DNA of 24,123 nucleotides. Source: a virus. The notes beneath the pieces were generated by a model, which was not told where the DNA came from, searched no databases, and saw only the letters and a list, made by a program, of their open reading frames with translations. A program made the translations under genes and the position numbers. The stretch is from positions 1 to 24,123 of IMG/VR virus record IMGVR_UViG_3300032285_001414; one strand, written 5' to 3'. Below, piece after piece: positions 7,734 through 23,839 of this stretch. Numbering within the stretch: the stretch's first letter is position 1; each line of letters begins with the position of its first letter.

Positions 7734-7748
7734 CCTAACAATGTTAGG
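7734..7748. repeat. Palindrome copy 1 (15/15), intergenic
   Basis: Perfect CCTAACAATGTTAGG, central A. It is the leftmost copy and lies in the divergent intergenic region, 227 bases upstream of the small terminase start. Confidence 0.97.
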
Positions 7749-7779
7749 TATTTATTTTTTAATTATTGTTTACAGATTG

Positions 7780-7809
7780 GATTAGATTAACCCCTAATCG
7801 TGGTACAAT
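7780..7809 (+). promoter_or_regulatory. Candidate early promoter with inverted repeat in place of a -35 box
   Basis: A good -10 hexamer TACAAT (7804-7809) has no recognisable -35 box at 16-18 bases. Instead the inverted repeat GATTAG (7780-7785) / CTAATC (7794-7799) covers that place, so an activator or repressor may bind there. Transcription would lead into the gene at 7886. Confidence 0.4.
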
Positions 7810-7830
7810 ATAGGCTGATCTAGCAAATTC

Positions 7831-7849
7831 GCTAGGTCGCTAACCTAGC
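7831..7849. promoter_or_regulatory. Inverted repeat in the leader of the gene at 7886
   Basis: GCTAGGT (7831-7837) and ACCTAGC (7843-7849) form perfect 7-bp arms with a 5-base spacer. The right arm shares its last base with palindrome copy 2. A further CTAGC/GCTAG pair (7820-7824, 7831-7835) uses part of the same left arm, so alternative hairpins or an operator are possible. Confidence 0.5.
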
Positions 7850-7863
7850 CTAACAATGTTAGG
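7849..7863. repeat. Palindrome copy 2 (15/15), 22 nt before a start codon
   Basis: Perfect CCTAACAATGTTAGG, central A. It ends 22 bases before the ATG at 7886, one of four copies at nearly the same distance from a start codon. Confidence 0.97.
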
Positions 7864-7885
7864 CAAACCTTTGGAGTAGTCGATT

Positions 7886-8422
7886 ATGGAAACCATCACT
7901 AACGTAGAAGTGCTGTTTGATCTTGGTTCACTTCGTGCCGCTGTAGCAGATAGCGTAGTCAGGGCATACGGTGCAGAGCGCGAGTACGCTGTGGCACTAA
8001 ACACCGAGTTCACCTTTGCTTGGTTTGATATTGAGGCGACAGACAAGAGCGTTACCGCTGCACCTGTTCACGCCGAGAAAAGCGAGTTGTACAAGGTTCT
8101 TCATGCTGCAAAGCATAGCAACCCTAGCACAGTATGGGCACGCATCCGTAAGTATGGTGCTGAAGAGGCAACCAAACACGGCACGCATGGCAAGCCACTA
8201 CCTGCCTATGACACCGAGGGCAATCTCATAACCGAGTGCGACCAAGGCGAGTCAGGTGCGAATAACAAACGCAGCCCGATGCTACGCAACATTGAAGAGT
8301 TGTCCAAGTTGTATATCTTCAATGCCAAACAAGAGAACCTTGACCGCCGAGTATACGAGGCACAGGTGGCAATCGGTGCGGCACTTATGGCACTAGGCGT
8401 TGACCTAGCGAACCTGAAGTAA
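7886..8422 (+). CDS. First gene of the rightward block, unknown function
   Basis: This 178-residue soluble protein begins METITNVEVLFDLGSLRAAV. Its centre holds SELYKVLHAAKHSNPSTVWA (about residues 66-85) followed by RIRKYG, and a C-terminal helical part runs MLRNIEELSKLYIFNAKQEN onward. I have the impression of a conserved phage family with the HSNPSxVWARIRKYG block but cannot name a function. No membrane segment is present. A GGAG ribosome site lies about 9 bases before the ATG. As the first gene after the divergent region it is a possible regulator, but I see no clear helix-turn-helix. Confidence 0.75.
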   Translation: METITNVEVLFDLGSLRAAVADSVVRAYGAEREYAVALNTEFTFAWFDIEATDKSVTAAPVHAEKSELYKVLHAAKHSNPSTVWARIRKYGAEEATKHGTHGKPLPAYDTEGNLITECDQGESGANNKRSPMLRNIEELSKLYIFNAKQENLDRRVYEAQVAIGAALMALGVDLANLK

Positions 8423-8454
8423 GCGAATGGGCAGGGCAGGGAAACCTGCCCCAG

Positions 8455-8469
8455 CCTAACAATGTTAGG
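8455..8469. repeat. Palindrome copy 3 (15/15), 20 nt before a start codon
   Basis: Perfect CCTAACAATGTTAGG, central A. It lies 32 bases after the stop codon at 8422 and exactly 20 bases before the ATG at 8490. A short GGCAGGGCAGGGAAACCTGCCCC hairpin-like stretch precedes it. Confidence 0.97.
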
Positions 8470-8489
8470 TATAACTTGGAGGTTTCAAA

Positions 8490-8591
8490 ATGCACAAGGA
8501 TAAGTTTTGGGTCAACGTGATGTGTATTGCAGCGATCATGCTAATGACAATCCCGTTGGTTTTTTGGTTTGTCGAGGAATTAGCGAAATGA
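8490..8591 (+). CDS. Tiny single-span membrane protein (33 aa)
   Basis: This 33-codon gene starts MHKDKFWVNVMCIAAIMLMT and carries one hydrophobic segment (about residues 7-28) with a Lys-rich N-terminus and a short charged C-terminus (EELAK). A strong GGAGG ribosome site (8478-8482) lies 7 bases before the ATG, which supports a real gene despite its size. The stop codon TGA ends one base before palindrome copy 4. The product should sit in the inner membrane. The function is unknown. Small phage membrane proteins include holin-like and superinfection-exclusion proteins, but nothing here distinguishes these. Confidence 0.6.
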   Translation: MHKDKFWVNVMCIAAIMLMTIPLVFWFVEELAK

Positions 8592-22585: not shown

Positions 22586-22793
22586 AGAAGAGGAAGTATG
22601 GCAAGAGATTGAGCGCAAAGCATGGCAACAGATGAAGCAAGCACATACGCTAGAAGCAGAAGCGCAATATAAGTCGTTGCAATTTGTAGCTGATTACAAC
22701 GGTGAAGAAATGGGTCAAATGTCAATACGCAAGGCGTACGAGATTGGTTATCGTGCAGCTATGCACGAAGTGGAGAGAAAGAAAAATGGCTGA
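22575..22793 (+). CDS. Small helical protein (72 aa), unknown function
   Basis: ATG 22575 follows GAGGAAGAAG and overlaps the upstream gene by 11 bases. The product starts MTPEEEEVWQEIERKAWQQM and is nearly all helix with many charged residues, ending AYEIGYRAAMHEVERKKNG. It resembles in composition a small coiled-coil or adaptor protein. No family recognised. Confidence 0.6.
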   Translation: MTPEEEEVWQEIERKAWQQMKQAHTLEAEAQYKSLQFVADYNGEEMGQMSIRKAYEIGYRAAMHEVERKKNG

Positions 22794-23106
22794 CGTACCG
22801 CAGTTCATAACACTTAAGAAAATAACAGTAGGTCAGGCTTTACAGAAAAAAGGAAATTCCACTACCAGTGAATTGGTTAAGCTAACAGGCAAAGATATAA
22901 AATTGGTACACAGCGCACTTAAAACTTTATACACAAGCAACAAGATTCACATTGGCGGGTATTCGGTTAGTAAGCGTGGCAAGTTATCAAAAGTATGGGC
23001 ATGGGGTGATGGTGATGATGCGCTTGAACCTAACAATGTTAGGCATAGAGAAGAGTTTATCCCACGCCCCGATGTGGCAGCAGCATGGTTGAGGAATCCA
23101 ATATGA
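22786..23106 (+). CDS. Winged-helix DNA-binding protein (106 aa), probable
   Basis: The start ATG 22786 overlaps the upstream gene and follows GGAGAG. Residues about 13-75 look like a winged helix-turn-helix: VGQALQKKGNSTTSELVKLT, then KDIKLVHSALKTLYTSNKIH as recognition-helix region, and a wing with GGYSVSKRGKLSKVWAWG. The C-terminus ends in a short tail, and palindrome copy 22 encodes PNNVR (82-86) just after the domain. Such proteins often act as phage regulators. It is one candidate for binding the 15-bp palindrome, but nothing in the sequence shows this directly. Confidence 0.65.
   Translation: MADVPQFITLKKITVGQALQKKGNSTTSELVKLTGKDIKLVHSALKTLYTSNKIHIGGYSVSKRGKLSKVWAWGDGDDALEPNNVRHREEFIPRPDVAAAWLRNPI
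23029..23043. repeat. Palindrome copy 22 (15/15), inside the winged-helix gene
   Basis: Perfect CCTAACAATGTTAGG, central A. It encodes PNNVR in EPNNVRHREE. Confidence 0.97.
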
Positions 23107-23291
23107 TCGAACTACCTAAACGAAAAGTACGTGGCAAAGCTAAGAAGCCTGCGCTTATGCTGACTAGCATACGGCTACCCACAGAAACAATGATGTTTTA
23201 CAAAACGAAATACCCGCACACGATGCAAGCAAAGATGCGCGAAGTGTTGCACGAATACGTAATCGAACACAGCAAGCAAGAAACTGTTTAA
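23103..23291 (+). CDS. Small ribbon-helix-helix-like protein (62 aa)
   Basis: ATG 23103 overlaps the upstream stop and follows GAGG. The N-terminus is very basic (PKRKVRGKAKKPA, residues 5-17). It is followed by LTSIRLPTETMMFYKTKY and AKMREVLHEYVIEHSKQ, the strand-helix-helix order of ribbon-helix-helix proteins such as the BrnA/CopG type. Those bind palindromic operators as dimers and are often antitoxins or autoregulators. No toxin partner was recognised next to it. It is a second candidate for a palindrome-binding protein. Family call is by eye. Confidence 0.55.
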   Translation: MIELPKRKVRGKAKKPALMLTSIRLPTETMMFYKTKYPHTMQAKMREVLHEYVIEHSKQETV

Positions 23292-23370
23292 ACTATTCAT
23301 ATTCCCATGAGCGCCTAGTTACATGGTATCCGCAGCTAACCTCATCTTGTATATGTGAATAGCTGTGTAG

Positions 23371-23451
23371 CGTTAGGTCTAGGCTAAATGTGCGCCTAAC
23401 GTACTACTCTCTCAAGACCCTGACGGGGGGCAGTTAATATACTAACCCCCC
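23371..23451 (+). promoter_or_regulatory. Two inverted repeats in the 23292-23545 intergenic region
   Basis: CGTTAGG (23371-23377) and CCTAACG (23395-23401) form a 7-bp inverted repeat whose arms resemble half-sites of the genome-wide palindrome but lie 17 bases apart. A GGGGGG/CCCCCC pair (23425-23430, 23446-23451) with an AT-rich loop follows, without a T-run. They may end or regulate the preceding operon. No gene is evident in 23292-23545. Confidence 0.45.
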
Positions 23452-23458
23452 AACCCAA

Positions 23459-23473
23459 CCTAACAATGTTAGG
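23459..23473. repeat. Palindrome copy 23 (15/15), intergenic upstream of P4
   Basis: Perfect CCTAACAATGTTAGG, central A. It lies 38 bases upstream of the -35 box of promoter P4. Confidence 0.97.
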
Positions 23474-23480
23474 TTTCATT

Positions 23481-23539
23481 TTGTCAACGTAAAAATAATT
23501 AAAATAATTTGTTGACAATGTAAAAAACCATGCTATATT
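23481..23539 (+). promoter_or_regulatory. Promoter P4 with inverted repeat spanning the -35 region
   Basis: TTGACA (23512-23517) and TATATT (23534-23539) are separated by 16 bases. Perfect 8-bp arms TTGTCAAC (23481-23488) and GTTGACAA (23511-23518) lie with starts 30 bases apart, about three helical turns, with an AT-rich spacer. The right arm covers the -35 box, and ACAATGT (23515-23521) matches the palindrome core. The ATG of the nuclease gene is only 7 bases beyond the -10 box. Confidence 0.75.
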
Positions 23540-23545
23540 GACAGC

Positions 23546-23839
23546 ATGGCTACCCCCGAATCGAAAGTAAAAGCTAAGTGCGTTGACCTGCTTAAAGCAG
23601 TCGGCGTCTACTATTTTTTCCCTGTCGCTAACGGCATGGGCAGGGCGGGGATACCTGACATTATCTGCTGCGCCAACGGGCGCTTTCTAGCCATCGAATG
23701 CAAGGCAGGTAAGGGCAAGACCACAGCACTACAAGACAGAGAGATAGCCGCGATACAAGCGGCGGGTGGTGTGGCGATTGTTATCAACGAAACCAACCTA
23801 ACATTGTTAGGTTCGACAATCAAGGAAATGCTGACATGA
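23546..23839 (+). CDS. VRR-NUC domain nuclease
   Basis: This 97-residue protein is a stand-alone VRR-NUC domain, a PD-(D/E)xK nuclease fold. Visible residues are E5 (in PESKVK), NGMGRAGIPD (29-38, D38 metal-binding), AIECKAGKGK (49-58, with E51 and K53) and Q63, followed by AAGGVAIVI. Phage VRR-NUC proteins act as structure-specific nucleases, perhaps in recombination or replication-fork processing. Promoter P4 ends 6 bases before the ATG and no Shine-Dalgarno sequence is present, so the message may be leaderless. Palindrome copy 24 encodes LTLLG near the C-terminus. Confidence 0.88.
   Translation: MATPESKVKAKCVDLLKAVGVYYFFPVANGMGRAGIPDIICCANGRFLAIECKAGKGKTTALQDREIAAIQAAGGVAIVINETNLTLLGSTIKEMLT
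23797..23811. repeat. Palindrome copy 24 (15/15), inside the nuclease gene
   Basis: Perfect CCTAACATTGTTAGG, central T. It encodes NLTLLG in the VRR-NUC gene and is the last copy in the window. Confidence 0.97.

Follow-up and report, generated by a model that had tools for sequence, protein, structure and literature searches.

A dispersed palindrome in the early genes of an uncultured phage family and its probable binding protein

The viral record IMGVR_UViG_3300032285_001414, analysed here as one stretch of 24,123 bases (hereafter the window), carries 24 copies of a 15-bp palindrome, CCTAACAWTGTTAGG, between positions 7734 and 23811 (scan of the window with up to three mismatches). The array is a trait of one phage family, the members of which are uncultured phages from water. 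Among these phages the two halves of the palindrome stand either one or two base pairs apart (spacer 1 or spacer 2), and the spacing varies together with the type, A or B, of the first early gene. The product of this gene (7886-8422 in the window) is very probably the protein that binds the word. The fuller statement, a stoperator-like shut-off of early transcription by the first early protein, seems to us probable when taken as a whole.

Fifteen of the copies in the window are perfect, seven have one mismatch, one has two (15160) and one has three (16309). The centre base is A in 16 copies and T in 8, and the 11-bp core TAACA[AT]TGTTA is kept in all 24. The initial annotation of this DNA had arrived at the same tally, and its claim that the number lies far above chance agrees with 100 dinucleotide shuffles, which gave a mean of 0.70 copies and a maximum of 3. 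The loose pattern TAAC-N3-GTTA has 24 matches in the window, all of which are the CCTAACAWTGTTAGG sites. All copies lie in the rightward block, which we label early from its position and gene types, and the scan found none in the leftward terminase/portal block (1-7507). Gaps between copies range from 115 to 2103 bp, as annotated, with a mean of about 698 bp ((23797-7734)/23) in place of the 670 bp given before. By our reading of the open reading frame (ORF) lists, in which starts are mechanical (first ATG, GTG or TTG), 13 of the 24 copies are inside ORFs, again the annotated number; a start codon follows 29-37 bp after the start of the site for at least five copies (7849, 8455, 9310, 10298 and 13019).

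The exact 15-mer occurs in at least 120 stretches of IMG/VR. Seventy-five of 121 loci examined contain at least three cores; one or more of ten gene families of the window are present in 74 of the 75, in agreement with the earlier suggestion that the word belongs to a phage system. The other 46 loci have fewer than three cores; 20 carry none of the ten families, and 18 of these are single-copy. Some contigs are counted under two locus identifiers (e.g., L059 and L176). Spacer-1 copies number 11-27 in each of seven 59-67 kb records that have no other spacing, and one record (G005, 60.0 of 63.1 kb read) has 6 spacer-1 and 11 spacer-2 copies. Portal similarity links the family to Pelagibacter HTVC023P/HTVC027P, Synechococcus MinM2, phage DSL-LC04 and Caulobacter GB2A, among others; the stretches read of HTVC027P, MinM2, DSL-LC04, GB2A, an Alcaligenes phage and a Manatee Spring phage hold no word array (no spacer-1 and at most one spacer-2 site).

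Comparison of the relatives reveals a constant half-site and a switching spacer. In 82 loci found with the 283-aa protein of the window as query (the best 80 of 581 viral loci plus two bacterial-genome loci), TAACA and TGTTA are separated by 0 to 12 bases in 3, 538, 222, 3, 1, 2, 0, 2, 1, 5, 1, 0 and 0 cases, respectively. Spacer 1 alone is present in 42 of these loci, spacer 2 alone in 23, both in 8 and neither in 9; the spacer-2 centres are mainly AA, TT or AT. The start codon of the VWA gene overlaps a site at offset -5 in 47 spacer-1 genes and at offset -6 in 38 spacer-2 genes, which is the same place re-spaced by one base. In the ATPase gene the site stands at offset 683 in 32 spacer-1 cases across relatives. 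In the 283-aa gene the peptide L-T-M-L-G is written exactly CTA ACA ATG TTA GG in 50 of 71 spacer-1 genomes; two spacer-2 genomes encode it with other codons, and most of the 35 spacer-2 genomes read E-L-A-M-L-G. Positions in these three genes are conserved in relatives, a check that the initial annotation had proposed, and its view that conservation is in the DNA word itself, not in a protein motif, is supported.

The first early gene adjoins the small terminase gene and is either of type A or, at the same place and of like size, of type B, which is found in many spacer-2 genomes. The two types are homologous (hhalign probability 96.5, E 7.8e-10). Considering the best 80 of 120 confirmed loci for type A and the best 80 of 93 for type B, the word is present in every one, with spacer-1:spacer-2 counts of 753:1 for type A and 144:648 for type B. 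The 223 loci with the gene reduce to 159 distinct proteins, none of which comes from a locus without the word: the type A proteins belong to 80 spacer-1, 2 mixed and 2 spacer-2 loci, and the type B proteins to 48 spacer-2, 20 mixed and 7 spacer-1 loci. Of the 103 loci with terminase and ATPase, gene and word occur together in 101; L221 has neither, and L169 has the word only, its array running to the contig end with the place of the gene cut off; this tally leans to the gene because most loci were fetched via the gene itself. The gene is present in 12 of 14 word-bearing sequences scanned whole, and the 15.5-kb record G002 has the gene while its terminase is missing. Neither type was found in seven virus records without the word. 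Three of these seven (G040, 61.4 kb; G041, 44.9 kb; G042, 26.8 kb) carry ATPase, VWA, 283-aa and ribbon-helix-helix (RHH)-like genes. The initial annotation had reasoned that relatives with the same genes and no word would refute a phage system; relatives with the same backbone genes and no word do exist, yet they also lack the gene at 7886. That gene was on the list of candidate binders given there, and co-occurrence, together with a spacing that follows type, singles it out. In the word-free relative L221, an unrelated 311-aa gene (3645-4580) lies near the place of the first early gene.

Kinship among the phages was controlled with gene trees. On a terminase tree of 134 of the 159 loci (terminase of at least 300 aa), the A/B type changes at least 17 times, and 10 of these changes are forced by well-supported branches. 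The window (type A, 24:0) falls in a group of eight phages; of the other seven, one is of type A (3:0) and six are of type B, whose spacer-1:spacer-2 counts are 4:13, 0:2, 2:2, 0:3, 2:1 and 2:1. Spacing fits the A/B gene tree better than all eight other gene trees built, with 6 changes vs 11 for TerL, 6 vs 11 for TerS, 4 vs 11 for the ATPase, 6 vs 10 for the 283-aa gene, 4 vs 6 for the RHH-like gene, 5 vs 10 for family F298, 5 vs 12 for VWA and 4 vs 8 for family F304. In 12 mixed type B loci, 24 of 32 spacer-1 sites are inside five conserved genes and 45 of 57 spacer-2 sites are outside them (p = 1e-6). Such a pattern would be expected if the regulator had been swapped and the sites had then changed by 1 bp wherever the reading frame permits; we infer this only, because spacer-2 sites avoid genes generally (in pure type B loci, 23 of 134 lie in genes).

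A second co-variation concerns the base that flanks the half-site, which in some genomes is often A instead of C. For type B, we compared this base with the residue three before the W of a YWxRVK helix. Asp (56 loci, pooled C 0.88), Tyr (5 loci) and His (1 locus) go with C, whereas Asn (9 loci, pooled A 0.64) and Thr (3 loci, A 0.58) go with A. With a cut at 30% A, set afterwards, Asp/Tyr/His loci fall below (60/60) and Asn/Thr loci at or above (12/12), 72 of 72 in total, although one Asn locus has just 35% A flanks. At least eight half-sites were available for 126 of the 159 loci and at least six for 144; the residue test covers the 72 of 75 type B loci that have the motif and at least four. 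Residue and flank base each change five times on the tree, three of these changes forced by supported branches. In our alignment the candidate residue falls in helix 94-106 of the predicted type B model. Asp-C and Asn-A are familiar protein-DNA contacts. In L185, L180, L283, L300 and others, ATAACA mostly replaces CTAACA, which looks like a sub-specificity of the same system.

The placement of the sites bears on what the protein may do. In loci aligned on the first gene, the interval from -10 to -3 kb, on the terminase/portal side, is free of sites over a total of 571 kb. Sites number 1.3-2.4 per kb around the first gene (-1 to +2 kb), drop to 0.6 per kb at +10 kb and nearly cease after that (8 of 1580 sites beyond +11 kb). 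The gaps are even (median coefficient of variation 0.55 vs 1.05 simulated), those below 100 bp making up 2.4% of 1145 gaps in 79 loci vs 22.2% simulated, and the median gap is 342 bp close to the first gene and grows to about 900 bp at a distance from it. In the early block of the window, the sites at 9310 and 13019 come after the two best promoter-like sequences that point rightward (9243-9271 and 12942-12970, respectively); for a third good match (23512-23539) the site is on the upstream side. In the mechanism that we propose, the first early gene would encode a site-specific DNA-binding protein with the words as its operators. Two protomers would most probably read the half-sites CCTAACA/TGTTAGG, with a gap of 1 bp between them for type A and, in most cases, of 2 bp for type B. 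The protein would then most probably shut down early transcription by blocking elongation along the operon and damp its own gene, and perhaps also shut down an incoming related phage. We propose early shut-off because the sites start in the divergent gap, repeat every 0.3-1 kb over about 11 kb of early genes, follow promoter-like sequences, sit in genes and spare the terminase/portal side. Control of elongation fits better than control of initiation, given sites that come after promoter-like sequences, lie in genes and thin out with the early genes. Direct binding of the word, dimer formation, repression, self-regulation and a superinfection role are predicted from these patterns; the word, its distribution, regular spacing and conserved positions, and its co-occurrence and co-variation with the gene family are observations.

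Several findings weigh against this reading. The exceptions to the spacing rule comprise two type A loci with spacer 2 only, seven type B loci with spacer 1 only and the 20 mixed loci. Of 10 independent pairs from the terminase tree, 4.5 have a spacing in accord with type, none has the opposite and 5.5 show no difference in spacing (median p 0.0625), a test that taken alone is suggestive, not decisive. Two of the whole sequences, G010 and G033, carry the word with no A/B gene found; both are also without terminase, so the place of the gene may be cut off. The candidate residue stood in the best of 160 columns tested, its three independent pairs on supported branches give p 0.25, and no column stands out as clearly for type A. 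In spacer-2 sites, flank positions 2-5 are not mirror images and AA exceeds TT at the centre even without an upstream ribosome site (191:101), an excess that is unexpected for a purely symmetric site unless coding constraints cause it. Promoter-like matches are not enriched (29 vs 26.7 by chance), and activating or structural roles would match the site distribution too. Both protein types gave scattered weak matches only, none of them convincing, in Pfam, PHROG and PDB sequences, so that a DNA-binding fold is not independently recognised, and their structure models are moderate (pLDDT, the predicted local distance difference test, 80 for type A and 72 for type B).

The alternatives differ in which part of the proposal they replace. 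With the same protein and sites, the complex could organise or mark early DNA (looping, compaction, replication or entry) with no transcription block. Even spacing and in-gene positions suit a scaffold as well as a roadblock, but the near stop of the sites about 11 kb into the early genes, their absence from the terminase/portal side and the many sites at start codons make this rather unlikely. Positive control, by an antiterminator- or activator-like complex that loads at the sites and keeps RNA polymerase moving through the long operon, would suit several relatives in which, by eye, a hairpin plus T run follows a far-end site and is itself followed by a promoter-like sequence (direction near the sites was guessed from the ORFs, wrongly for 7734, 7849 and 8455). 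We consider it unlikely: sites are found within genes and after the best promoter-like sequences, and no antiterminator is known to us that requires as many as two dozen loading sites. A classic lysogeny repressor with stoperators in a temperate phage would be the nearest functional parallel, and is quite unlikely here. Phage integrase (PF00589) and the ParB family (PF02195) were each found in none of 15 records, which may be incomplete (control profiles matched in 14 and 10 of 14), and the 283-aa protein has only two distant matches in 84,980 bacterial and archaeal genomes. Stoperator-like early shut-off is therefore favoured over lysogenic repression. The same scan removes the parS-like partition site that the initial annotation had offered as an option, as ParB was found in none of the 15 records.

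Two further alternatives, both very unlikely, change the binder or the molecule bound. Another early protein might bind the word, above all the RHH-like 68-aa protein (23085-23291), as ribbon-helix-helix proteins often bind palindromes. It has a homologue in 14 of 15 sequences scanned, including all word-bearing ones, and its tree is the least bad rival, yet it is present in seven of nine loci without any word and explains spacing less well than the tree of the 7886 family; no other early gene tested did better. The winged-helix-like protein (22702-23106) cannot be the general binder because no homologue was found at E 1e-4 in 14 other sequences. Alternatively the word could work as an RNA hairpin in the transcript, being bound, cut or used as a terminator, with translational control at start codons. 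It can make a 6-bp stem, four of the 24 copies are listed as terminator-like, and the VWA start codon lies in the word in the 47 + 38 genes noted above. We examined the flanks with site orientation taken from the gene itself. In 939 distinct spacer-1 sites the first three flank positions are nearly mirror images in composition, and their pairing is close to independence, slightly above it at position 1 (0.802 vs 0.762) and position 3 (0.356 vs 0.312). In 602 spacer-2 sites only position 1 is mirror-like, with pairing of 0.709 vs 0.639. A few positions thus pair slightly above chance, but pairing beyond the core is far from full and nearly what independence predicts. The 10-bp core is almost without variants (in type A loci without spacer 2, 780 exact and 60 one-mismatch cores vs 47 in a reversed control), and the changes at position 1 turn C into A across a whole genome, in step with one protein residue. 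This covariation test largely rejects the hairpin; because the flanks vary nearly independently on the two sides, we take the word to act as DNA rather than RNA. The spacer-1 centre is A or T in a ratio of 524:379 overall and 364:319 (p 0.09) without an upstream ribosome site.

Among known systems the stoperators of mycobacteriophages are the best analogy, which leaves the parallel drawn in the initial annotation standing as an analogy and not as an identification. L5, Bxb1 and other cluster A phages have 20-30 short repressor sites per genome, mostly not promoter-associated, and motif and protein diverge together between relatives (PMC6550527); the L5 stoperators are asymmetric 13-bp sites oriented with transcription, and the protein that binds them is a monomer that has two DNA-binding domains (PMC9283540). 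The array here resembles them in having many copies of one short site per genome (24 in the window, 11-27 in the seven long records). It differs in that the site is palindromic, with spacer 1 or 2, and stands mainly in early genes, in that spacer-1 sites have no significant orientation outside start-codon contexts, and in that the integrase or partition genes of a temperate phage were not found in the 15 records. We do not file it as an L5-type system because the site is palindromic without clear orientation. The C1 repressor of P1, a temperate phage with a plasmid prophage, likewise has dispersed operators. The start-associated sequences of cluster K mycobacteriophages are a repeated word near translation starts of unrelated genes, asymmetric, mostly in one orientation and partly complementary to 16S rRNA (PMC3203893); the word here is, unlike these, palindromic and inside ORFs for over half of its copies in the window.

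The features of the window are collected in Table 1.

Table 1 Copies of the word and selected genes in the window
Feature	Coordinates	Strand	Context	Basis
Site 1	7734..7748	.	divergent terminase/early intergenic gap	word scan
Site 2	7849..7863	.	start 37 bp upstream of ATG 7886	word scan
Site 3	8455..8469	.	start 35 bp upstream of ATG 8490	word scan
Site 4	8592..8606	.		word scan
Site 5	9310..9324	.	start 35 bp upstream of ATG 9345; downstream of promoter-like 9243-9271	
Site 6	9573..9587	.		word scan
Site 7	9813..9827	.		word scan
Site 8	10298..10312	.	start 29 bp upstream of ATG 10327	word scan
Site 9	10858..10872	.		word scan
Site 10	11722..11736	.	within ORF 11507-11824	word scan
Site 11	12479..12493	.	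within ORF 12017-12913	word scan
Site 12	13019..13033	.	start 35 bp upstream of ATG 13054 (MoxR-type ATPase); downstream of promoter-like 12942-12970	
Site 13	13735..13749	.	within ATPase gene, offset 683, position common to 32 spacer-1 copies in relatives	
Site 14	14478..14492	.	within HNH gene 14190-14792	word scan
Site 15	15160..15174	.	2 mismatches	word scan
Site 16	16309..16323	.	3 mismatches, core intact; within VWA gene	word scan
Site 17	16547..16561	.	VWA gene end	word scan
Site 18	17419..17433	.		word scan
Site 19	18575..18589	.	within ORF 17829-18680, codes L-T-M-L-G; position common to many spacer-1 relatives	
Site 20	19486..19500	.	within ORF 18691-19605	word scan
Site 21	20926..20940	.		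word scan
Site 22	23029..23043	.		word scan
Site 23	23459..23473	.	directly upstream of promoter-like 23481-23508 and 23512-23539	
Site 24	23797..23811	.		word scan
Portal	2829-5384		leftward block	
Terminase large subunit	5394-6932		leftward block	
First early gene, 178 aa, type A of two-type family, proposed word binder	7886..8422	+		co-occurrence, gene tree
MoxR-type ATPase	13054-14118		rightward block	
HNH endonuclease	14190-14792		rightward block, inside array, contains site 14478	
Metallopeptidase/VWA protein	15373-16551		rightward block	
283-aa protein	17829-18680		rightward block	
Winged-helix-like protein	22702-23106		rightward block	
RHH-like 68-aa protein	23085-23291		kept in phage family	our reading

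Searches with parts of the window returned little. No DNA similarity to positions 7500-15400 and no tblastn match to the 178-aa protein were found in 50,697 phage records, and no tRNA genes or Rfam families were found in the window. The type A protein has no Pfam or PHROG match at E<=0.01, and Foldseek and structure searches with its model gave nothing significant and nothing above the usual helical-bundle level. Three homologues of the RHH-like protein had no Pfam match above the cut-off. In one open library, the 15-mer CCTAACAWTGTTAGG was not found in print, the six papers that contain TAACAATGTTA are unrelated judging by their titles, and the papers listed by topic indicate no comparable system beyond known stoperator work. 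The word bears a resemblance to the tet operator; for one relative, 20 Pfam families are listed across 58 proteins, and TetR is not among them. The noncoding stretch 8840-9180, between the sites at 8592 and 9310, contains by eye many single half-sites (TGTTA, TAACA). Tandem small paralogues starting MNSRIS occupy 17039-17845, with the site at 17419 about 27 bp before the start of an internal copy. The HNH gene has a relative in just one of 14 other sequences compared.

Synechococcus phage MinM2, a distant relative with portal and MoxR/VWA genes, has a dispersed palindrome of its own, GGTTCAGNCTGAACC, with the same 7-1-7 layout and a different word. Its positions 40625-65014 (L393) contain 14 exact TTCAG-N-CTGAA cores in 24.4 kb, spanning 2776-22935 of that stretch, and the other 40.7 kb of the genome contain seven more. 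By eye, many GGTTCAGNCTGAACC copies stand just before genes. The product of MM2_92, a gene that adjoins the divergent gap, has no detectable homology to the A/B family. Two further phage records, Pag-Yong1 and Pra-JY27, have the same length as MinM2 and identical portal matches; neither GGTTCAGNCTGAACC nor the name Pag-Yong1 was found in print in the library mentioned, and no paper listed there under MinM2 mentions this phage by name. These observations suggest that arrays of this kind may be commoner than known.

Taken together, the analysis predicts from sequence an apparently undescribed family of phage regulators, the operator that goes with it, a rule for half-site and spacing, and one residue as a candidate for setting specificity. 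The furthest-reaching version, an operon-long operator array of an undescribed DNA-binding family in virulent phages, with the regulator swapped as a cassette and the operators re-spaced by 1 bp, is one that we put forward only tentatively, as a possibility that more probably fails than holds. If it is true, cassette swap and 1-bp re-spacing would amount to an immunity-group system between lytic phages. Phages might be sorted by operator type into groups with and without mutual shut-off. The exchange of regulators offers a natural experiment in the re-tuning of a regulon of about 20 operators. The finding would carry stoperator-like arrays beyond temperate mycobacteriophages, into a large group of uncultured phages in which no lysogeny genes have been recognised.

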